Origin: a virus
Strand: one strand, 5' to 3'
Virus record (IMG/VR): IMGVR_UViG_3300007511_000087
Coordinates: 1 to 31,109 of that record
DNA length: 31,109 nt
Shown here: in pieces, positions 563-27,218 of the stretch
Layout: each line of letters opens with the position of its first letter
Numbering within the stretch: position 1 is the first letter of the stretch
Program-made: the position numbers and the translations under genes
Notes under the pieces: generated by a model
Told to the model about the DNA's origin: nothing
The model's database searches: none
Seen by the model: only the letters and a program-made list of their open reading frames with translations

Positions 563-2788
563 CTATCTTCTCTTCATTGTATCTATTACTTGTTGTCTGA
601 ATTTCTTCAACACTATACCTTCAGCTTGTTGTGCGTTTTTGACATATACTATGTTCTTCTTGAATACTTCTGTCAATTGTCTTCGTCCTAGACCAGAAGT
701 TGATATACCTAATGCAAATGAGTTCTTGCATAATCTATTCAGTTTGGTAAACTCTTTTCTTGCCATTCTCACTAGGATTTTATCATCTATTGCAGCCCTA
801 CTAACAGGGTCAAAGTATTGTGGATGTCCATCAGTTAACATGATGAATAGTTTCTTACCATTACCACTGTTTGTTATCTCTTGTCTTGCATATCTTAGTG
901 CTTCATGTGTTGGTGTGTATACGTAGTGACTGTCTATACCAATATGTCTACACTCGGATAGTTTTCTGATAGGTGTTATACATACATCTCCATCTCTACC
1001 TGCTGACCATACATTTGCTATCAATTGTACGTGTGGTAATCCTTCTATTGATTTGAACATTGTTGCAATCATTCTTCTACAGATATTTATACGGTCATCA
1101 TATCTCATAGAACCTGAACCATCTATAGATACTATTACTTTGAGACCACGTTGAGGTTCTTCACCTATCATAAACTCACCATAACCTCGTTGTTTTCTTG
1201 CTATGTATGATTCAGTATCTACTTCCATGCCATTCTCTGTTACTTTTGTAACTCTACTTGCAACAATCTTGTCGAATGTTTTCTTTAGATATCTTGTAGC
1301 TGTTGCATTAAGGTCGGTTATCTCACCCACTTCTCTGTTCTGGTAATTACTATCTACTAGGATATGTGCTGGTTTCTCTGGTTCTTCTAGTTCTTGTAGT
1401 TTTGATAGTATGTTGCTTATCTCTCTACGTGCTGTTGCCTTGCTCTTCTCATTAGTTAGTCCACCAGCTTTTAGTTTTTCCATTACCTCTTCCAGTTCTG
1501 CTTTATTCTCATGTGAACAAGCCTCATGATTACCAGTTGGATTCTTAGCAAATTCACTATTACCTTTCTCAATCATAGTGTTAGCTGAACCATTTAGTTC
1601 TGATCTTATTCTTTCTCTTGCACTTCCATGTTCTGTTTCTTTCCTCTCTAATTCTTCCACTCTTTTTCTTTTGGTCTCCCATTCTTTATTGGTGGTAGAC
1701 ATTTCTCTCTTCATCTTGTTCACACTTCTAGTTAGTTGTTGCTCACGTTTCTTTGCCTGTTCCATTTGTTTCTTGTCCATACCTTGAAGTTTCTCTATTG
1801 CTTTGAACTTATTAATCCTTGACTCCACCTCTACGACTGCTTTGTCTGGTGCTTGTTTTATCTCTTGTTTTAGTTTTTGCAATTCCTCTTGTTCGTTCTT
1901 TCCAAATCCACCATTGGCTATTGCATTATAGTTGTCCATTACTTTCTTCATGTTTTCTTTCAGTTGTTTTTCAATCCACTCGTCAATGTCTTTACGTAGT
2001 TTGTGAACCTCAATGATTGCTCCAAACTTATCTGTGTATTCTACATTCTTTATTGCATCATGGTACACATGTTCTACGTCAAACATTGATGGATGAGTGA
2101 ATCTAACTGCAAGTAGTTTATCAACTGGTGATTCAAATGTTTGACAAGTAGAGGCAAGGTTCTGCCTTAACTCTTTAAACATTCCCTTAGTTGACAACCA
2201 TACTCTGCTAGTTAATGATTCAATCCTCTGGTCTTCTAACACATTAAAGACTGTCATGTATGTACTACGTGCAAATCCTTTATGTGATTCAAGTAATCTA
2301 TTGAACCTCTCGAATAGTATTGGGTCAGGCAAAATCTCTCTACCTTTCTTGTCCTTGAATACTATCTGTTCTTTACCATCAACGACAGCTAACATACCTA
2401 ACTCTTTCCATCTCTTTACTACGTAACTATTACCATAGTCTCTACAGATTGTCATACCATTAGATACAAAACTCTCCCACAATGCATGTCCTTGCTCGTG
2501 GTAGTAAGCTGATTTCATATCAACTTCTTTAAGAGGTGGGTCAGTTAGATTGATAACGTATTCAATCTTAGCCTTCTCAGTTGCAAACTCTCCTTGACCA
2601 TTGTTATGTATAGAATTTGGTTCTCTAGTATATGTGATTGCTATCTTCTTACCAGTTATCTTCTCAACAATATGTTTTCTCTTCTCGTAGTAATCTTTGT
2701 CTGTGAAGTATTCAGAAAAAGGAACGAAGAAGGGATTAGGTGTTGCCTCCTCCCATTCTCCTTTAGATATATTGTATATCCATTTCAT
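563..2788 (-). CDS. CobT-like VWA-domain protein with N-terminal HExxH motif
   Basis: This 741-residue protein ends in a von Willebrand A domain: the MIDAS motif DGSGS is at 556-560, a conserved threonine lies in YTPTHEA near 625, and LTDGHP is at 651-656. The N-terminal part has HEQGH at 97-101 and NVLEDQRIE ending at 190, the arrangement of gluzincin-type metallopeptidases; CobT and DUF2201-like proteins carry related helices. Residues about 295-470 are Lys/Glu-rich and probably coiled coil. VWA proteins of this kind act with a MoxR/CobS-type AAA+ ATPase, and that gene lies directly upstream. AGGAGG (2798-2803 on this strand) overlaps the ATPase stop and supports the ATG at 2788. True cobaltochelatase activity is not indicated, since no CobN is present. 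A protein-remodelling or proteolytic role is inference. Confidence 0.85.
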   Translation of the reverse strand: MKWIYNISKGEWEEATPNPFFVPFSEYFTDKDYYEKRKHIVEKITGKKIAITYTREPNSIHNNGQGEFATEKAKIEYVINLTDPPLKEVDMKSAYYHEQGHALWESFVSNGMTICRDYGNSYVVKRWKELGMLAVVDGKEQIVFKDKKGREILPDPILFERFNRLLESHKGFARSTYMTVFNVLEDQRIESLTSRVWLSTKGMFKELRQNLASTCQTFESPVDKLLAVRFTHPSMFDVEHVYHDAIKNVEYTDKFGAIIEVHKLRKDIDEWIEKQLKENMKKVMDNYNAIANGGFGKNEQEELQKLKQEIKQAPDKAVVEVESRINKFKAIEKLQGMDKKQMEQAKKREQQLTRSVNKMKREMSTTNKEWETKRKRVEELERKETEHGSARERIRSELNGSANTMIEKGNSEFAKNPTGNHEACSHENKAELEEVMEKLKAGGLTNEKSKATARREISNILSKLQELEEPEKPAHILVDSNYQNREVGEITDLNATATRYLKKTFDKIVASRVTKVTENGMEVDTESYIARKQRGYGEFMIGEEPQRGLKVIVSIDGSGSMRYDDRINICRRMIATMFKSIEGLPHVQLIANVWSAGRDGDVCITPIRKLSECRHIGIDSHYVYTPTHEALRYARQEITNSGNGKKLFIMLTDGHPQYFDPVSRAAIDDKILVRMARKEFTKLNRLCKNSFALGISTSGLGRRQLTEVFKKNIVYVKNAQQAEGIVLKKFRQQVIDTMKRR

Positions 2789-2801
2789 TTCTTAGTACCT
2801 C

Positions 2802-3926
2802 CTAGTTCTCTGACCAATCAAACGTGTCGTTGATTGATTGTTGTATGAGTTCACGTTCTGTTGAATCACTGTACCTGATTAGTACTGTCTTATCTAATGT
2901 CTTACGCAACACAGTTAATGCATCTGCATTTTGTTTTGGGTCATTAAATATACGGTACACTTCACAGAAGTCTTTGAGGTCTCTCACTGTCAAGACATAC
3001 TCTACGTCACCCTTGGTTCTATAGTTGTATGTGTCTGTTGCTAGTTGCGTGATTCCTTGTTTAGCATCGTCTGGTACTCCAGTCCAATCAACAATCTGTT
3101 CTAGATGTTCTTGTGATGGGTAATCCCAGATGTCTCCAACAAATCTACTTCTCAAATCCTCGTTCAATTCTTGGACACCTGAATAAGTAGATGGGTTTTG
3201 TGTTGCCACAACAATTAGTCTTGCATCTCCTACTCTAAACATATGACCATTAGCTGACAAACATCTACGTGCATCAAGTAATGAGTTCAACATCTTCTGT
3301 AGTTCTGGTTCTAATGCATTCAACTCATCTAGATATAGTACTGCAACACCATCTCTTAATGCAGATTGAATTGCCTCTATTAAAATACCAGCAACGAAGA
3401 TTGATATCTCTTTACCATTCTCATCAACACTTAGTTGGTATCTACCTCGTAGGTCTCCCTCTCTTAAACCACTACTACATGAGATTGATATGATATTACA
3501 TTTACCATAAGTTTCTTTCAATAGAGTAGCTAGTTCATAAGCAAGAGTTGTTTTACCTGTACCTTTTCCAGCCTCGATTAGAATGTTAGGTATCTCTTTG
3601 TTCTGTGCAATGTCTAATATATCTTGCAACTCACTCTTGGTCTCAACGTACTCACCTAATCTAACAGGTTCGTATTGGTCAAACGCAATAGGAGCGAAAG
3701 GTATCTTAGTAGTTAGTTCTTCGACAGGTTGGTACTTTGCCATTGTTGGTTTGGTTGCCTTCTTTACTACGTTAGGTGATTGTTTCATAAGTTTATCTAG
3801 TAAGTCTAGGAACTCATCGTTTCTTACAATCTCTACGTAATTCTTCTTAGTAACAGAGTTTTGTGCAAGGTCTCGTGCCTTGTTAGTTAGTTGTTCTTTA
3901 ATATCTTCTCGGTTCATTTTACTCAC
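2802..3926 (-). CDS. CobS/MoxR-type AAA+ ATPase
   Basis: A 374-residue AAA+ ATPase. The Walker A motif is EAGKGTGKT at 118-126, Walker B is VLYLDEL at 195-201, sensor 1 is VVATQNP at 239-245, and the arginine-finger region RSRF is at 259-262. This matches the MoxR/CobS clade, which pairs with VWA proteins to remodel partners using ATP. About 100 residues of helical N-terminus precede the ATPase core. The longest frame uses GTG at 3926; an ATG at 3917 would give 371 residues. The VWA gene follows 13 bases downstream, so the two should be co-expressed and act as a complex. CobS-like genes are known from cyanophages and from viruses assigned to marine Thaumarchaeota. The substrate is unknown. 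Confidence 0.9.
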   Translation of the reverse strand: MSKMNREDIKEQLTNKARDLAQNSVTKKNYVEIVRNDEFLDLLDKLMKQSPNVVKKATKPTMAKYQPVEELTTKIPFAPIAFDQYEPVRLGEYVETKSELQDILDIAQNKEIPNILIEAGKGTGKTTLAYELATLLKETYGKCNIISISCSSGLREGDLRGRYQLSVDENGKEISIFVAGILIEAIQSALRDGVAVLYLDELNALEPELQKMLNSLLDARRCLSANGHMFRVGDARLIVVATQNPSTYSGVQELNEDLRSRFVGDIWDYPSQEHLEQIVDWTGVPDDAKQGITQLATDTYNYRTKGDVEYVLTVRDLKDFCEVYRIFNDPKQNADALTVLRKTLDKTVLIRYSDSTERELIQQSINDTFDWSEN

Positions 3927-3953: not shown

Positions 3954-4007
3954 TCAGTAAGCCACCACTCCTCTCGTATCATTTGTATGTGCAATTGTTT
4001 TTGCCAT
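3954..4007 (-). CDS. Possible 17-residue leader peptide
   Basis: A 17-codon frame (MAKTIAHTNDTRGVVAY, stop TGA) begins 28 bases after a strong TATA box. It ends 27 bases before the GTG of the AAA+ ATPase gene. The transcript from that promoter would be leaderless and start on this ATG, so the peptide would be the first thing translated. It shares the opening MAKT with the 104-aa protein at 6106, which follows an identical promoter box. It could be a leader peptide, a remnant of a duplicated gene start, or chance. The frame is too short for coding statistics. Confidence 0.35.
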   Translation of the reverse strand: MAKTIAHTNDTRGVVAY

Positions 4008-4030
4008 GCCCAGAATTATATAGGTTGCCC

Positions 4031-4048
4031 AATATAAATGTTGGTGTT
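4031..4048 (-). promoter_or_regulatory. Promoter box of the ATPase/VWA operon
   Basis: Read on the minus strand this is AACACCAACATTTATATT. The TATA core TTTATATT is centred about 28 bases upstream of the ATG at 4007. All 18 bases are repeated exactly at 6128-6145 in front of another minus-strand gene. Confidence 0.65.
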
Positions 4049-4064
4049 GTATTAGATATTACAT

Positions 4065-4361
4065 CTAACTCTTATCTACCTTACATTCTTTAATGTATTC
4101 TTCGAGTTGTTTGTCGGTCATCTTATGTTTCTTACGTATCTCTACTTCTTCAGGTGTAAGTACAAGCTTTGGCTCTACATATTTCGGCATCTTATCTACC
4201 TTCTTTACTGTAGGTTTCTTCTTCACATTAGCATCGAAAGCTATAATGTTTTGGCATTTGTCACAATAAAAGATATTGATACGTAGTGGTGTTGATAACT
4301 CAGCTACAACAGTAGTAGTGCCAAGGTATCTAAACTTACTACCACAGAATGAACAGGGCAT
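4065..4361 (-). CDS. Small zinc-ribbon protein (98 aa)
   Basis: A 98-residue protein of unknown function. It has CxxC pairs at C3/C6 (PCSFCG) and C33/C36 (YCDKC), which together form a typical four-cysteine zinc ribbon over the first 40 residues. The remainder is Lys/Glu-rich, with a likely helix and a TPEEVEIRKKHKMTDKQ segment. It is the last gene of a three-gene transcript, starting two bases after the stop of the 47-aa zinc-ribbon gene. A nucleic-acid or protein-binding adaptor role is plausible for such ribbons but is inference. Confidence 0.8.
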   Translation of the reverse strand: MPCSFCGSKFRYLGTTTVVAELSTPLRINIFYCDKCQNIIAFDANVKKKPTVKKVDKMPKYVEPKLVLTPEEVEIRKKHKMTDKQLEEYIKECKVDKS

Positions 4362-12643: not shown

Positions 12644-12889
12644 ATGATTGAAATGCTTGATAGTCTATTTACAGAAATAGTACTAGCATTAATCCTAGGA
12701 ATAGGAGGTACATTACTTGCATTTTTCAGAAAACTGAGTAATACCCAAAGTGATCTCTGTAAAAAAGTGGAGCAGTTACAGAGAGCCATGATTATTTTAG
12801 CAACTGCTCTAGATAGACAAACTAATAGAATTCATGACAAAGCTGACTCAAACATGGAAGATTTAGTCAGTAAGCTTATAAAAGATTGA
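12644..12889 (+). CDS. Small membrane-anchored coiled-coil protein (81 aa)
   Basis: An 81-residue protein with one membrane segment at about 10-28 (EIVLALILGIGGTLLAFF). A soluble helical part with heptad-like spacing follows (LCKKVEQLQRAMIILATALDRQ). It has its own leaderless promoter and is followed by another membrane protein. The pairing of two small membrane proteins beside the head genes recalls holin or spanin-like lysis pairs, but archaeal lysis genes are poorly known and no endolysin is seen, so this is a weak guess. Confidence 0.7.
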   Translation: MIEMLDSLFTEIVLALILGIGGTLLAFFRKLSNTQSDLCKKVEQLQRAMIILATALDRQTNRIHDKADSNMEDLVSKLIKD

Positions 12890-20594: not shown

Positions 20595-21593
20595 ATGGCA
20601 ATAACTACTGGCTCGTATGGTACGCTAAAATATGCTTGGGAAGAGACTTATGCTAATCTTTATAGCACTGGTAACCAACAAACACCAAATAAGAAATTTG
20701 GTATTCAAGACAAAGTTTCATCATGGACTATAGGAAATAATAGAATTGACCTAGCAGAACTAAATCAGACAGAACTAGCTAACTATGCATACGGAACACA
20801 GACTGGTAGCCTAAGTGTTGATTTTGTATTAGCTAACCCATGGATATTAAGAGCATTTTATGGAGAACCATCGGTTGTAACAGGTTCACCAAATGTATGG
20901 ACTTGGCAAAAATCAGGAACAAAGACAAAAGATGTATCAACATTTACTACTGAAATAGGAATAGACATTCCATCAACATCAAATGATATTAGGAGAACAT
21001 TAAAAGGATGTATGATGAGATCGCTTACAATTAACGCATCAATTGGTGGAACAGTTGACTGTTCTGCTGACATTGCATATGCAGAGGAAGATGCTCCATC
21101 TACAAGTGGAGTAGCAGTTGCAACTGAACCAACAGTTGAATTCCCATATACATTTGCACACGCAACTATCAAACAAAATAACGTGACATTAGGAAAGGTA
21201 CAAGACTTGAGCATTACATTTGCACAAAACTCTGACTTCTTATACGGATTAGGTTCACACCAAGCAGTTGACAGTTTCAGACGTGTATTCGATATTACTG
21301 GTTCATTCAAAATCTCATTACAAGATAAGACTAACTTAGAAGTTGTTCTAGACCAAATAGCAAAAGGAACAGCAGGTACATATGCAGAAACATTAGATTC
21401 ATCAGCACCATATTTAGAAATTAAATTCCTAAAGGATGCAAACGAAGAGATAAAACTAACATTAACAGGAATATCTCTAACAGACCTAGGTATATCTGGA
21501 TTAGAACCAGTAGAACCTATATTTGAGGATGTTACATGGAGAGCAAAATCATGTATATGCACAGCCGAGAATAACCAAACAACAGAAGAGTAA
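20595..21593 (+). CDS. Major tail (tube) protein
   Basis: A 332-residue beta-rich protein. It opens MAITTGSYGTLKYAWEETYA and has repeated strand/turn elements, including TQTGSLSVDFVLANPWILRAFYG, GCMMRSLTINASIGGTVDCSADI and SLTDLGISGL. The 'slti.a..g..v..s.d' motif and length are typical of tail tube subunits. It lies directly before the chaperone genes and the tape measure. No sheath gene is adjacent, which favours a non-contractile tail. Its own strong promoter agrees with high expression. Confidence 0.8.
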   Translation: MAITTGSYGTLKYAWEETYANLYSTGNQQTPNKKFGIQDKVSSWTIGNNRIDLAELNQTELANYAYGTQTGSLSVDFVLANPWILRAFYGEPSVVTGSPNVWTWQKSGTKTKDVSTFTTEIGIDIPSTSNDIRRTLKGCMMRSLTINASIGGTVDCSADIAYAEEDAPSTSGVAVATEPTVEFPYTFAHATIKQNNVTLGKVQDLSITFAQNSDFLYGLGSHQAVDSFRRVFDITGSFKISLQDKTNLEVVLDQIAKGTAGTYAETLDSSAPYLEIKFLKDANEEIKLTLTGISLTDLGISGLEPVEPIFEDVTWRAKSCICTAENNQTTEE

Positions 21594-21597
21594 ACAC

Positions 21598-21604
21598 TTA
21601 TATT
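21598..21604 (+). promoter_or_regulatory. TATA box of the chaperone gene
   Basis: TTATATT, centred 25 bases before GTG 21626; this supports a leaderless GTG start. Confidence 0.5.
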
Positions 21605-21625: not shown

Positions 21626-22021
21626 GTGGTATTAAAATCATTTACTATAAAATATGAAGGTAAAGATGAAATAATAGAATATGAAGACGACTTAACTTTT
21701 GGTGAGATGGAGTCAATAATTAATTCATCAATTGATCTTACAGATGTAACAAAACCCAAAGTTAATTTACCAGAATATAGAACAAAAGTACTATTAAGTA
21801 CAATAAAAAAGGCTCCGTTTAAAACAGGAGATGTTGTCGCATTAAGAAATTTAAAATCTAGTGTTGTCAATCAGGTGCTTGGAGGGGTACTCAAAGACTA
21901 CCCTTTATCGAAGTATTTGGAGCAGTGGATGGTAAGCTTCGTAGGAAACGAGGATTTCGAGATACAGCAGAGTTCTACTACTTCTTCGCCAAAGAGTTCG
22001 GCTGGGCGAAAGAAACGGTAG
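21626..22021 (+). CDS. Tail assembly chaperone, zero-frame product
   Basis: A 131-residue product from GTG 21626 (MVLKSFTIKYEGKDEIIEYE...). It has an N-terminal beta part and a helical middle (FGEMESIINSSIDL). Its C-terminal 37 residues become Ser/Thr/Lys-rich and low complexity after the frameshift site, as expected when only the fused form carries a structured end. Tail assembly chaperones of this type (lambda gpG equivalent) bind the tape measure. The gene lies exactly between tube and tape measure, the canonical position. Confidence 0.75.
   Translation: MVLKSFTIKYEGKDEIIEYEDDLTFGEMESIINSSIDLTDVTKPKVNLPEYRTKVLLSTIKKAPFKTGDVVALRNLKSSVVNQVLGGVLKDYPLSKYLEQWMVSFVGNEDFEIQQSSTTSSPKSSAGRKKR
21901..21907 (+). 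promoter_or_regulatory. -1 ribosomal frameshift heptamer C-CCT-TTA
   Basis: CCCTTTA matches the X-XXY-YYZ slippery form and is correctly placed in the zero frame (TAC CCT TTA). Slipping back one base gives CCC TTT, then ATC GAA, joining the frame open from 21862 to 22134. Two bases after the heptamer CGAAG (21909-21913) can pair with CTTCG (21937-21941), a weak stimulatory stem with a 23-base loop. Confidence 0.7.
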
Positions 22022-22134
22022 ACAGACAATCTGCTCAATATTTAGCTAGTTTAATCAAGGTTCATAAACATGTTCAGGCTCTTAATGAAAGAGAAACACG
22101 CTTGACAGGTATGCGTAATCCTCGAAAACTTTAA
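21907..22134 (+). CDS. Tail assembly chaperone, frameshift (T-like) extension
   Basis: A second frame, -1 relative to the chaperone, is open from 21862 to TAA 22132-22134. Joined at the slippery heptamer it adds 75 residues (IEVFGAVDGKLRRKRGF onward), giving a 169-residue fusion. The motif EFYYFFAKEFGWAKETVDRQSAQYL resembles the 'FGWt.eevd.l' segment common in phage genes just before the tape measure. A separate start at GTG 21925 is possible, but its GGAG lies only two bases before the codon. Fusion is therefore the preferred reading, as for lambda gpGT. Confidence 0.7.
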   Translation: MEVFGAVDGKLRRKRGFRDTAEFYYFFAKEFGWAKETVDRQSAQYLASLIKVHKHVQALNERETRLTGMRNPRKL

Positions 22135-22160: not shown

Positions 22161-24068
22161 ATGGCTAGAAATTATAAAGTAAAGATGGAGTTGGAAGTTG
22201 ATTCCAAATCCATGAATAAATTGAAACAACTGTTCAAAGATATGGACATGAAATGGAATAGAGATACTCTAAAGGAAGCAAAAACAATGTCTGACCAGAT
22301 GAGGGAGTTGAATAAAACATTAGCAAAGTTAAGAGTAGACTTATCTAAGATTAAAAGCTTTGGAGGTAGTAGTAAGGGTGATGAGAAAAACCTAGAAGAC
22401 CTATTAAAAGAAGTTAAAACATTGAATGATAATACAATGAAAAATCACAATCAGATTATTACAAAATACTTCAAAATATGGACTGATGCCAAAGGTGGAA
22501 TGAAACAAGGTAAGGATTTAAGTGAAGAGGGAAAGACAACAAGACAATACAGTAGAGAACGTATTGCACAAATAGATGCAGATTCACAATATCAAAAAAC
22601 ACTATGGCATACGCAAGTACAACAAGAACATGCGAAACTTATTAGACTGGATGATCAATTAAAAAATCAGAGAATGCTTAATAGATCATTCTTGTCTACA
22701 TTAGGTAGTGGTGGAAGTTTTTTTCAAGGTATAAAACAAGTTCTAAAAACAACTGATACGTTTTCTAAATATGATGATATGTTAAAATTAATGCATATAG
22801 ACCCATCAATAAAAGCAAAGATTGAACAAGCAAGAATGAGTCATGATCCAGTGGCTCAAGCAACTGCTAGTAGTCTTGCAGCCAATGAAGGTGTCAATTT
22901 ATCAAATGCCATGGCAGCACAAAACACAATACTTGGTAAAATATTAAAAAAAATAGATAGGATTACACCAGATGCATCTACTCCTAGGGGAATGGCAATG
23001 GCTGGTTTAGGAATAGCTGGTGTCGCATTACTAACAAAAGCATTTAGAAAGGCATTAGATTCATCACCAATGCTAAAACAAATGGCTAAACTTTTAGACT
23101 TTGGTGTTATGTTAGTGTTGAGACCTATAGGTGACTTCTTTGGTTTCTTATTTAGACCTATACTTATATTATTACTAAGAAAGTTCATTATACCATTCTA
23201 TCAGGAATATATGCCATTAATGAGAAAATTAGGTGGAGATATAGGTAACTTTTTAACCAAAGTAATTGACATTGCAACTAGCTTTGAAGGAATGACAGCA
23301 GCAGGTGCTGCCGTCGCTGCTGGAATATTTGCATATTTTAAAAAGAAAGGTGGTAAGATACAAATATTTAGTAAGAATGCTGTAGCAAATTTGGCAAAAA
23401 TGGCTAGACCGAGTTTATGGAGTAGGATTTCTAATGCCTTAACAATGAAAGCTCCAAAAGCTAGTTATTGGAGAAGAGTATCTAATGCGTTAAGAATTAA
23501 AGGTTCTATTCCTAAACTACCAAAATTACAATTACAGATTCCAAAATCATTACAACCTTTAATAAAAATAATTCAAGAGACACAAGATGCATTATCAAAA
23601 ACTAAGATACCACCAACATCTGATGATGTAGTAAAAACTCCTTTAAAGGAACTAGATAGACCACCAAGAGGTAGCAAATTTACAGTGCCAGTAAGTGCTT
23701 TAAGTAAAGCAGCAACAATACTTAACTTATGGGATTTAGCTTCAGGTAAGATGGGATATGATATTTTCAATGCAGCAAACGCACCAGAAATGACTGAATT
23801 TAACAAACAAATGCATGGACAAGCATCTGAGATTTATCCATGGATGTCAGGAACAAAAGACCCATTAGTTGACAGATGGGGGGATATTGGAGGTATACCA
23901 TCAACAGGTCAAATACTTTCAGGTGATTGGGGAATGGGTACACCTCCTCCATCTAGTACACCAAATCATCAAATAATAATTCAAGCAGATACAATTACAA
24001 CTGAGGCAATAGATAACGTAACAGATAAAATGGTAAACGGTAAGAGGACGTTTAGTAGCCTTGGTTAG
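22161..24068 (+). CDS. Tape measure protein
   Basis: A 635-residue protein fitting the tape measure role: a long charged helical N-terminus (1-260), then hydrophobic segments at about 275-295, 311-345 (FGVMLVLRPIGDFFGFLF then RPILILLLRKFIIPFY) and 378-393 (TAAGAAVAAGIFAYF), and a basic C-terminal part. A short internal repeat is visible: WSRISNALTMK (about 420-430) and WRRVSNALRIK (about 437-447). It follows the chaperone genes. For a helical tape measure about 1.5 angstrom per residue would give a tail of roughly 95 nm; that is a rule-of-thumb estimate. It is short for the family. Confidence 0.8.
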   Translation: MARNYKVKMELEVDSKSMNKLKQLFKDMDMKWNRDTLKEAKTMSDQMRELNKTLAKLRVDLSKIKSFGGSSKGDEKNLEDLLKEVKTLNDNTMKNHNQIITKYFKIWTDAKGGMKQGKDLSEEGKTTRQYSRERIAQIDADSQYQKTLWHTQVQQEHAKLIRLDDQLKNQRMLNRSFLSTLGSGGSFFQGIKQVLKTTDTFSKYDDMLKLMHIDPSIKAKIEQARMSHDPVAQATASSLAANEGVNLSNAMAAQNTILGKILKKIDRITPDASTPRGMAMAGLGIAGVALLTKAFRKALDSSPMLKQMAKLLDFGVMLVLRPIGDFFGFLFRPILILLLRKFIIPFYQEYMPLMRKLGGDIGNFLTKVIDIATSFEGMTAAGAAVAAGIFAYFKKKGGKIQIFSKNAVANLAKMARPSLWSRISNALTMKAPKASYWRRVSNALRIKGSIPKLPKLQLQIPKSLQPLIKIIQETQDALSKTKIPPTSDDVVKTPLKELDRPPRGSKFTVPVSALSKAATILNLWDLASGKMGYDIFNAANAPEMTEFNKQMHGQASEIYPWMSGTKDPLVDRWGDIGGIPSTGQILSGDWGMGTPPPSSTPNHQIIIQADTITTEAIDNVTDKMVNGKRTFSSLG

Positions 24069-24906
24069 TGTAAGACTTGCATTATTAGAAACGCAAGAAC
24101 AAGATGCTGCCACAACTAACGAGCAACATACGTTTGTTATGAGAAACTTCACAAACCTCAACATAGATTTGAGAACACCTATATCGCCTATGCCATTACC
24201 AGAAGAAAGTGATACGGAAAATATTCTTGTCAAGGTTGAAGGAAACACCACTGCTATATCATACAGTTTTGTAATTAAGCCTGAATCTGCAAGTTCTCCA
24301 ACCACATATAGTCAAGGTGCTTCTGATGTCGTCGCTAATGCAAATTATACTGTGAGAGATCAAATAGATTTTTTAAAACAAGATATGCAAGGAAAAAGTA
24401 TAGATGACCATTACAAATTACAGATAAAATACAGTGAAGATGGAGATGATGATTTAACATTTTACGGATTTGTTAATAATATATCAATAGTTATAGATTC
24501 CAGCGCTCCAGCTACAGCAGTTTGTACAATTAGTTTCCTTGTAGGAGATACAATAACCTCTTTGGATGAAGATATTCCAAGTGAACCATCATTCTCTATT
24601 GGCACTGTTAGTGGAACAACCATACCATTAACCATTAGTTTACCAGTAGATAAAGGTGGTTCAAATAACATTGTTAATTACTATATACAATACTCTAACT
24701 ACATAGGAGGAAGAGGCTCAAGAAGTCCATGGAAAAAGTATAATTCGACTGATTCTTCAATATCTGGTAATGTGAGTTTCAATCTAGGTTCTTCAGATGG
24801 TATAATTGCTGATAAAACATACAGTGTAAGAGTTGCAGCAAAAGGTTCTGATTATCTCAAGGGTGAATGGTCTGATTGGCAAAATGCTGGAAGTGCAACA
24901 ACATGA
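24061..24906 (+). CDS. Tail tip protein with C-terminal FN3 domain
   Basis: A 281-residue protein directly after the tape measure, the position of distal tail or baseplate proteins. Residues 1-170 are beta-rich. Residues about 174-281 form a fibronectin type III domain (PSEPSFSIG, IPLTISLPVDKGG, YYIQYSNY, KTYSVRVAAKG, WSDWQNAGS), often used for adhesion to cell-surface sugars. The start is TTG 24061, eight bases inside the tape measure gene, with a GAGG a few bases upstream; no ATG is available. The stop overlaps the next ATG. Confidence 0.7.
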   Translation: MVSVRLALLETQEQDAATTNEQHTFVMRNFTNLNIDLRTPISPMPLPEESDTENILVKVEGNTTAISYSFVIKPESASSPTTYSQGASDVVANANYTVRDQIDFLKQDMQGKSIDDHYKLQIKYSEDGDDDLTFYGFVNNISIVIDSSAPATAVCTISFLVGDTITSLDEDIPSEPSFSIGTVSGTTIPLTISLPVDKGGSNNIVNYYIQYSNYIGGRGSRSPWKKYNSTDSSISGNVSFNLGSSDGIIADKTYSVRVAAKGSDYLKGEWSDWQNAGSATT

Positions 24907-27218
24907 GTAATGTAAAATTAATGGTTACCAAAAAAAACTCATCTGGTACAGTAACATCAATAAAACCAGCACAGGTTATCAAGGCAAGAATAAAAAGAGA
25001 GGGAGTGAGAGCAGTTGATAGTGGAACTGTTATAGTTCCATCTAAATATGATATAGAACAAGGTGATGAAGTTGCATATATACAAGATGTATGTAATACA
25101 CAATATCTAAAAGGTATTTGGAATTTTCAAATGAGTGGAAGAGATGAATCAGGTTATAAATTATGGGATAATGAAAGTGCAAGTAGATATTTTTTCAAAC
25201 AATTCCAAGGAGAGTTTGAGAATGAAGGTAATTCAACAACTTTTAATTGGCACTCAAATTATTCAAGTTCAGCAACGAAAGATAGAAAATTTGCTGAATG
25301 CTGGGTGTTAAAATTAGATGGAACTACTGGTACGGCTGCAGATGGGTCAACATCAAGTGTTAGTTCAAAGATTAGGATAGCAAATAAAGTATACCCACAA
25401 CAAAGTGGTTCAAATATAGTAAATTTAAGAGACCATTTTGATATTTATATTTGGTTAAGAAGATATGATGGTACTGAATCAGGTACAAAGAAATGTCTAT
25501 TTAGTAAGAGAGATGGAACTACTGGTTTAGAAATATTTTATGTTCTTCCTACAATAACAGATGATGGGCATATAGAAGTACAGGCAACAACAGCTAGTAC
25601 AACAACAGATATTAATTATTCTAATCCAACTAGTGATCCTGTTCATACAGGATTGGGTGCTTCAATGGATTGGACACTTGTAAGAGTAAAGAGAGATTCT
25701 TCTGATAACATACAGATTTTTGTTGATGGTATTAAAGTAAAACAACAGAGTTATGCAGCCAGTTTAGATAATACAGGAAATATTACAATAGGAGCTGATT
25801 ATAACGGAAGTAATAATGCAATATGTTATATGGGTCAATGTAGGGTATATGCAGGTGGAACATTAGAACGTGACAGTGAAAAAGTAAGAACATCAAAACC
25901 ACAACCTATGACAATGAAATTAAACGGTGTGTGTGTAAGGAAGAAAGAGAAAACAAATAAGAAAGAAATAGTGATAAATGGTACGTCAAAGATAATGATG
26001 CAGATGAAAGTCACTGAAAAACAGAGAGAATCTAACGGTGATTTAGAAGAGGGTATATGGTATCAGTCAGCACAAACTTGGGAAGAATCAACAAGAACAG
26101 GTAATAAGAATGTATTAACAAGCACATCTGCATATGGTGTCGTAAACGATTTAATAAGAAGTGCAGATCCAGAGTTTAGAACATACATTGACGGTGATTT
26201 ATCAAGTGGTGATGGTACTAGTGGTGATGTCACCAATATAGTTGATCCTGAAGGGTCAGATAAAAAGAGTAAGACAATATCAAAATTTGTCGCTAATGGT
26301 CAACTAGTTAATCTTATCAAATTATGTAATTTAATAGAAGACCAAGATACTAGATTTTTTGCATTTCCTACAAAAGTACTAGCTTTAGAAAAAGCAAAAC
26401 AACACCTAGTTATGTTTACTAATTACATACATGGTATTAATGGTGTAAGAATAATGGAAGATTTAGCAGATGAAATGAAACAAATAAATAACGTTATAGC
26501 AGTTGGAACTACGTTCGCATATAGAGTTAAAGAGACTAAATCAAGCCCTTTTGGAACATCTGAAGCTTTAACATATACTCCTATTGGTTCTGTTACTGTG
26601 ACAAAAGATGGTACTGTATTAGAACAGATAACAGAATATGACTCTAGTGGAAATGCAAGTTCCCCTTCGTCAACTCAGTTTTATGTTAATATGGAGTCAA
26701 AAACCATAATTATGGGAACTTCTCCATCATCATCACTTGTAATTGAATATGAATACGAAGAACTGTCTAACACACAGAAATATTCAAGAACTGCATCTAT
26801 AACAGAAAGTGGTTTAAGAACTTTAACAGTAATAGCACCACAGTTTAAAAGTAGAAAGAATCTTTATTCTTTAGCAAAGAGTGTTGGAGATAATCTTTAT
26901 AATGTTAAAAAAGGATATAGAGTAGAATTCGGTACACTTATTAATCATGTAAGAGAAAATATGGGTGTATTTTTAGGTAGTGGTATAAGAGGTTTTAATC
27001 ATACAACAAGAATTATAAAAGATCCACAGGGAACAACTGTATCTAAATCAGGTTATCATAGTGATAGGCTTGAAGTAATGGGTATTGAATGGTTTTATCC
27101 AGAAAATAGAACTGTTTTACGAGTGGGAGAATATGCTTTAGATGTCAAGGACTTGGAGCAATTATTTGGTCAAGAGGTATCAGGTTTAAAAAGCAGTGTT
27201 ACGAAGACACTCACATAG
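24903..27218 (+). CDS. Baseplate hub-like protein with inserted LamG-like domain
   Basis: A 771-residue protein from ATG 24903, chosen because it overlaps the previous TGA as ATGA; an upstream in-frame start at 24876 is less likely. Residues 1-95 and 335-771 look like one baseplate hub: KARIKREGVRAVDSGTVIVP, and later MTMKLNGVCVRKKE and VIAVGTTFAYRVK. Between about 100 and 325 lies a concanavalin/LamG-type jelly roll (DHFDIYIWLRRYDG, MDWTLVRVKRDSSDNIQIFVDG, ITIGADYNGSNN), interrupting the hub. Such domains bind carbohydrate. The protein may position the tip on the host S-layer or glycans. Confidence 0.7.
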   Translation: MSNVKLMVTKKNSSGTVTSIKPAQVIKARIKREGVRAVDSGTVIVPSKYDIEQGDEVAYIQDVCNTQYLKGIWNFQMSGRDESGYKLWDNESASRYFFKQFQGEFENEGNSTTFNWHSNYSSSATKDRKFAECWVLKLDGTTGTAADGSTSSVSSKIRIANKVYPQQSGSNIVNLRDHFDIYIWLRRYDGTESGTKKCLFSKRDGTTGLEIFYVLPTITDDGHIEVQATTASTTTDINYSNPTSDPVHTGLGASMDWTLVRVKRDSSDNIQIFVDGIKVKQQSYAASLDNTGNITIGADYNGSNNAICYMGQCRVYAGGTLERDSEKVRTSKPQPMTMKLNGVCVRKKEKTNKKEIVINGTSKIMMQMKVTEKQRESNGDLEEGIWYQSAQTWEESTRTGNKNVLTSTSAYGVVNDLIRSADPEFRTYIDGDLSSGDGTSGDVTNIVDPEGSDKKSKTISKFVANGQLVNLIKLCNLIEDQDTRFFAFPTKVLALEKAKQHLVMFTNYIHGINGVRIMEDLADEMKQINNVIAVGTTFAYRVKETKSSPFGTSEALTYTPIGSVTVTKDGTVLEQITEYDSSGNASSPSSTQFYVNMESKTIIMGTSPSSSLVIEYEYEELSNTQKYSRTASITESGLRTLTVIAPQFKSRKNLYSLAKSVGDNLYNVKKGYRVEFGTLINHVRENMGVFLGSGIRGFNHTTRIIKDPQGTTVSKSGYHSDRLEVMGIEWFYPENRTVLRVGEYALDVKDLEQLFGQEVSGLKSSVTKTLT

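Follow-up and report, generated by a model that had tools for sequence, protein, structure and literature searches.

A very probable programmed -1 frameshift in the putative tail assembly chaperone gene of a family of archaeal viruses

The question raised by this locus is whether two overlapping reading frames of a viral genome, located between a tail tube gene and a probable tape measure gene, are joined by a programmed -1 frameshift to give two forms of a tail assembly chaperone. The window, which is the whole stretch of DNA analysed, corresponds to the 31,109-base IMG/VR record IMGVR_UViG_3300007511_000087, in which the host is not stated. The original prediction, made from the sequence without database searches, placed a slippery heptamer CCCTTTA in the zero-frame phase within the overlap of two frames offset by exactly -1. 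Both statements have been confirmed, as the zero-frame codons at the site are TAC-CCT-TTA and the second frame, which opens just after a stop codon and ends at its own stop (22132-22134), overlaps the first one over 160 nucleotides (nt) with an offset of exactly -1. The predicted fusion of 169 amino acids would consist of 94 zero-frame residues (...YPL) followed by 75 residues (IEVF...) of the -1 frame, with its FGW motif encoded at 21997-22005, and the unshifted protein ends in a disordered C-terminal tail that is missing from many homologues. The comparison of related loci described here indicates that a programmed -1 frameshift at C CCU UUA very probably yields G-like and GT-like proteins from this gene.

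The heptamer CCCTTTA is present as a single copy considering both strands of the window, with about 3.8 copies expected in shuffled sequence, and since its occurrence by count is not significant, only phase and conservation have been used as evidence. Relatives were first located in IMG/VR through the neighbouring tail tube gene, which makes the search independent of the heptamer; this step was followed by a search of all loci with a zero-frame protein profile, in which the seven aligned bases were read regardless of their identity. This analysis revealed CCCTTTA in phase at the aligned position in 75 of the 75 distinct chaperone loci, and no homologue with both frames and without the heptamer, an observation that the original prediction had named as refuting, was found. 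The profile was seeded from heptamer-bearing members, and further members free of this seed selection (L147, L175, L235, L237 and L251) likewise have CCCTTTA. The only other profile match was a fold-back contig end from which the aligned residues are absent. All the distinct complete loci contain a zero-frame open reading frame (ORF) of about 112-158 codons and an overlapping frame at -1 offset. In two loci, L018 and L036, only 3 nt of open -1 frame precede the heptamer, which rules out a shift further upstream. Three apparent exceptions (L147, L237 and L251) were dismissed because all of them have CCCTTTA in the chaperone gene. Regarding the organisation of these loci, the interval between the tube and chaperone genes of L147 is longer by about 300 bases and contains a small ORF (around 4000-4320), in a sub-lineage (L237, 2501-4533; L251, 1212-3299) the chaperone gene follows two tail tube paralogues arranged in tandem, and a fold-back contig end in L251 (3859-4143, minus strand) joins a reverse-complement chaperone fragment to the tape measure gene, probably as an assembly chimera.

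After removal of sequences more than 90% identical, 54 non-redundant homologues with a median pairwise identity of 48% were retained. Synonymous steps were counted on a tree constructed with the part of the zero-frame protein that precedes the site, using 27 conserved columns as comparators. Among the 54 sequences, the CCT codon, the TTA codon and the last base of the codon before them each had 0 synonymous steps, whereas the comparators showed a mean of 11.3 and a minimum of 2. Upstream of the site, CCT represents 37% of the proline codons and TTA 46% of the leucine codons. The residue before the heptamer varies (Tyr, Phe or Ile), but the last base of its codon is always C. The heptamer is conserved as nucleotides, beyond protein alone, and the alignment of homologues proposed in the original prediction has therefore given a positive answer at the synonymous positions.

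The -1 frame, in which a conserved-looking FGW motif had been noticed previously, encodes a conserved protein domain, whose pattern in an alignment of 52 members is Y..F.A..FGW.K..VD.Q..YL, with A30 and W35 invariant. The model of this domain is helical, with a mean predicted local distance difference test (pLDDT) of 88-94 per block for residues 21-60.

A Shine-Dalgarno (SD)-like tract, GGAGGGG in the window, is located upstream of the heptamer, and it is also conserved at the nucleotide level. An SD-like core (GGAGG, GGGGG or similar) was found in 42 of the 54 non-redundant homologues, and in 37 it ends exactly 13 nt before the heptamer. At this position the encoded residues differ between homologues (KEV, LGGV, TGV, KEA), yet the run of purines is maintained. 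With the general 3' end of archaeal 16S ribosomal RNA (rRNA), taken from established knowledge, as the anti-SD sequence, the mean pairing energy of all 54 homologues was -8.5 kcal/mol versus -4.4 +/- 0.34 kcal/mol in synonymous-codon redraws. The tract exceeds codon and amino-acid expectation, and its 13-nt spacing is within the 9-14 nt published for SD-stimulated -1 shifts (PMC5009743). Judged from these data, the GGAGGGG tract probably stimulates the frameshift. The more general proposal, that archaea with leaderless viral mRNAs, for which SD pairing is not required to initiate translation of this gene, use pairing between the mRNA and the 16S rRNA 3' end during elongation to drive programmed -1 frameshifting, is moderately favoured. 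If true, an SD-stimulated element for recoding would exist in archaea and would be conserved throughout a family of viruses that infect ammonia-oxidising archaea. The locus also gives a hypothesis that can be tested, namely that SD-like sequences inside genes act on archaeal ribosomes even though the genes look leaderless.

With respect to function, the AlphaFold model of the zero-frame protein (pLDDT 81) matched in BFVD the named tail assembly chaperones of Bacillus phage 019DV002 (E 5.8e-4), the haloarchaeal virus HHTV-2 (E 2.2e-3) and Gemini (E 6e-3), these matches being modest with template-modelling (TM) scores of just 0.43-0.51. Matches to Reovirus L2 and FAS-associated factor were rejected as weak and implausible. 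No match was obtained in a PDB fold search, and neither of the two products could be assigned convincingly to a Pfam or PHROG family. The placement between tube and tape measure genes made in the original prediction holds for the tube gene, which is identified by Pfam, and is probable for the tape measure gene, a 635-amino-acid call made by position and synteny with a best tape-measure PHROG match of E 0.2. This position matches that in HVTV-1 and also in HCTV-1, where two small genes lie in between. The fold matches and the location of the gene support a G/GT-like tail assembly chaperone as the putative product of the zero-frame ORF and the -1 domain.

The leaderless GTG start proposed for this gene agrees with a TATA-like element, CTTATATT, at -29, but the upstream SD-like tract had gone unnoticed in that proposal. 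In 32 of the 54 non-redundant homologues the best TATA match has position -29 or -30, and 7- or 8-of-8 matches are present in 40 of the 54 compared with 19% of shuffled upstream regions, which suggests that the chaperone transcript is of the leaderless archaeal type. Many genes of the right-hand block (those beginning at 12644, 12926, 18164, 18593, 18890, 20595 and 21626) have a TATA-like element at this distance of 29-30 nt and little SD complementarity, as if each of them had a promoter of its own and gave a leaderless transcript. In the capsid search the related named viruses were all archaeal, and a protein similar to AmoC (ammonia monooxygenase subunit C) is encoded in 3 of 14 longer relatives; marine Thaumarchaeota viruses bearing amoC have been cited (PMC8651126). 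From the archaeal capsid relatives, the TATA elements and AmoC, a Nitrososphaerota host is likely for the family. Two scans of GTDB genomes for proviruses with tube and capsid profiles revealed no relatives, and no near DNA match was found among named phages.

Independent initiation of the -1 frame as a separate gene could draw on the presence of GTG 21925, on the ATG found at the aligned codon in L006 and on the SD-like tract upstream. The aligned codon is GTG in 14, TTG in 14, ATG in 6, CTG in 5 and another codon in 15 of the 54 homologues, and NTG is frequent because a conserved zero-frame Trp codon (TGG) overlaps this position. Against a separate gene stand this by-product origin, the 15 homologues without NTG and the 16 of 50 homologues that have no ATG, GTG or TTG from the stop that opens the -1 frame to the conserved domain. 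The variation of the aligned codon and these missing starts contradict translation solely from GTG 21925, which the original prediction had named as a possible refutation. In addition, a distance of about 37 nt separates the SD-like tract from this GTG, too great for initiation, and the conservation of the heptamer would be left unexplained, so internal initiation is considered very unlikely. Although a frame break of this kind is obtainable by a single-base change, a broken gene or an assembly or sequencing error has a negligible probability and is already refuted by the conservation of the same arrangement in 75 distinct loci from many metagenomes, with both frames conserved as protein.

Slippage of transcription rather than of the ribosome would likewise yield two products from one gene, but no tool result supports it, and runs of three such as those in CCCTTTA are too short for the usual slippage of RNA polymerase. 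The XXXYYYZ pattern kept in codon phase and the SD-like tract fit the ribosome, which makes the transcriptional explanation extremely improbable. A frameshifted ORF pair with a function other than that of a chaperone would be consistent with the lack of a convincing Pfam or PHROG family and with the negative comparison to haloviral chaperones given below; the position between the tube and the probable tape measure genes, the frameshift architecture and the structural matches with proteins named as tail assembly chaperones argue against it, and this possibility is considered unlikely.

Some results weigh against an SD-stimulated frameshift in a tail chaperone gene of these viruses. A single clade of 12 relatives is devoid of the SD-like tract. 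No conserved 3' hairpin was detected, with a mean z of about -0.1 to -0.4, the consensus fold 3' of the site is essentially empty, and no excess stability indicative of a dnaX-type stem-loop 5-9 nt downstream was found, all in folding models without pseudoknots. The hhalign comparison with haloviral zero-frame chaperones gave a probability of 1.7%, the haloviral profile comprising 3 sequences, and a Nitrososphaerota host for the window itself is something that we infer from sequence. The 12-member clade keeps the heptamer, and neither an SD-like tract nor a 3' structure was found in it.

In the mechanism that we infer for the programmed frameshift, most translation would give the G-like tail assembly chaperone, and a minority of archaeal ribosomes would move back one base at the site, with the P-site tRNA-Pro re-pairing from CCU to CCC and the A-site tRNA-Leu from UUA to UUU. 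Continuation in the -1 frame would produce the GT-like fusion (...DYPL-IEVFGA...). The GGAGGGG tract would pair with the 16S rRNA 3' end and probably raise the shift rate. On the lambda model, the role of the zero-frame part would be to coat the tape measure protein, and that of the T-like domain to bring in subunits of the tail tube. The annotation of such viruses should merge the two frames.

The features described are summarised below. Other genes of the window include one encoding a 741-amino-acid protein (563-3926, minus strand) with a von Willebrand/CobT-like look next to an AAA ATPase that resembles CobS, an impression from sequence rather than from a family search; such a pair is known from other archaeal tailed viruses. 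At E 1e-3 the 741-amino-acid protein matched none of the named phages. The protein encoded at 24876-27218, in the tail region, has a concanavalin-like (Laminin_G_3) domain. Scanning the window for Rfam families and tRNAs gave no hits.

Features of the frameshift locus and of related records (coordinates of the window unless a record is named)
Feature	Position	Strand	Description and basis
Zero-frame ORF	21626-22021	+	131 amino acids, GTG start; putative G-like tail assembly chaperone; 54-member alignment, model, BFVD matches
-1 frame open region	21862-22134	+	Putative T-like domain encoded from 21901; 52-member alignment, helical model
Slippery heptamer C CCT TTA	21901-21907	+	Predicted -1 frameshift site; 75 distinct loci
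SD-like tract GGAGGGG	21881-21887	+	13 nt 5' of heptamer; probable frameshift stimulator
TATA-box-like element CTTATATT	21597-21604	+	29 nt 5' of GTG start
Tail tube gene	20595-21593	+	PF18906 Phage_tube_2, E 1.1e-18; anchor for locating relatives
Probable tape measure gene	22161-24068	+	635 amino acids; position/synteny, weak PHROG match
Clade without SD-like tract			L133, L136, L138, L140, L141, L143, L147, L157, L166, L168, L169, L176
amoC relatives	L305 1570-2133		187 amino acids in L305; L305, L306, L307 = records of L125, L097, L100

The frameshift proposed by the original prediction for an archaeal system is strongly supported by these data, but predicted tail chaperone frameshifts of archaeal viruses had already been published. 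Reviews consider -1 frameshifting probable for the tail chaperone of HVTV-1, HCTV-1, HCTV-2 and HCTV-5, and describe the haloviral cases as apparent or likely (PMC5009743, PMC8211752); the HCTV-16 frameshift is annotated in GenBank as putative. Tail-chaperone frameshifting in archaeal viruses is already known as a prediction, and the window is a further, unusually well conserved case. The contribution of this analysis lies in the strength of the comparative evidence, the C CCU UUA heptamer and an SD-like tract beside leaderless-type promoters, with the exact site fixed and this kind of frameshifting extended to a widespread virus family of probable Nitrososphaerota.

The arrangement resembles that of lambda G/GT (Levin 1993; Xu, Hendrix and Duda 2004, reviewed in PMC5009743), in which the gene also lies between tube and tape measure with a -1 offset and an extra C-terminal domain is provided by the downstream frame. 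However, the lambda heptamer is G GGA AAG, no sequence relation was detected in family searches, and the present system has an SD-like tract and an archaeal host. Among the Druskaviridae (HVTV-1, HCTV-5, HCTV-1 and HCTV-16), the heptamers are GGGAAAG and GGGAAAC instead of CCCTTTA, and the zero-frame chaperones are not recognisably related to that of the window by profile comparison. Nevertheless, the tail tube of HCTV-1/HCTV-16 is 31% identical to that of the window and the major capsid protein 26%, both proteins being homologous, and HCTV-1, HCTV-16 and HVTV-1 have a similar gene order with an annotated frameshifted chaperone. HVTV-1 and HCTV-5 carry GGAGG 10 nt before the slippery site, the SD-like tract of HCTV-1/16 being less strong. 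In E. coli dnaX and insertion sequence elements an SD-like tract lies 9-14 nt from the slippery site, as the 13 nt observed here, whereas in the window no conserved 3' stem-loop was found and an archaeal ribosome and a viral tail gene are involved. Programmed -1 frameshifting is reported as demonstrated in archaea themselves for only one gene, fucA1 of Saccharolobus solfataricus (PMC8211752), which also shifts at a heptamer; fucA1 encodes an enzyme of the cell, its site combines A AAA AAT with a putative stem-loop, and most of its relatives are full-length without a frame break, in contrast to the frame overlap present in all the distinct complete loci of the viral family described here.
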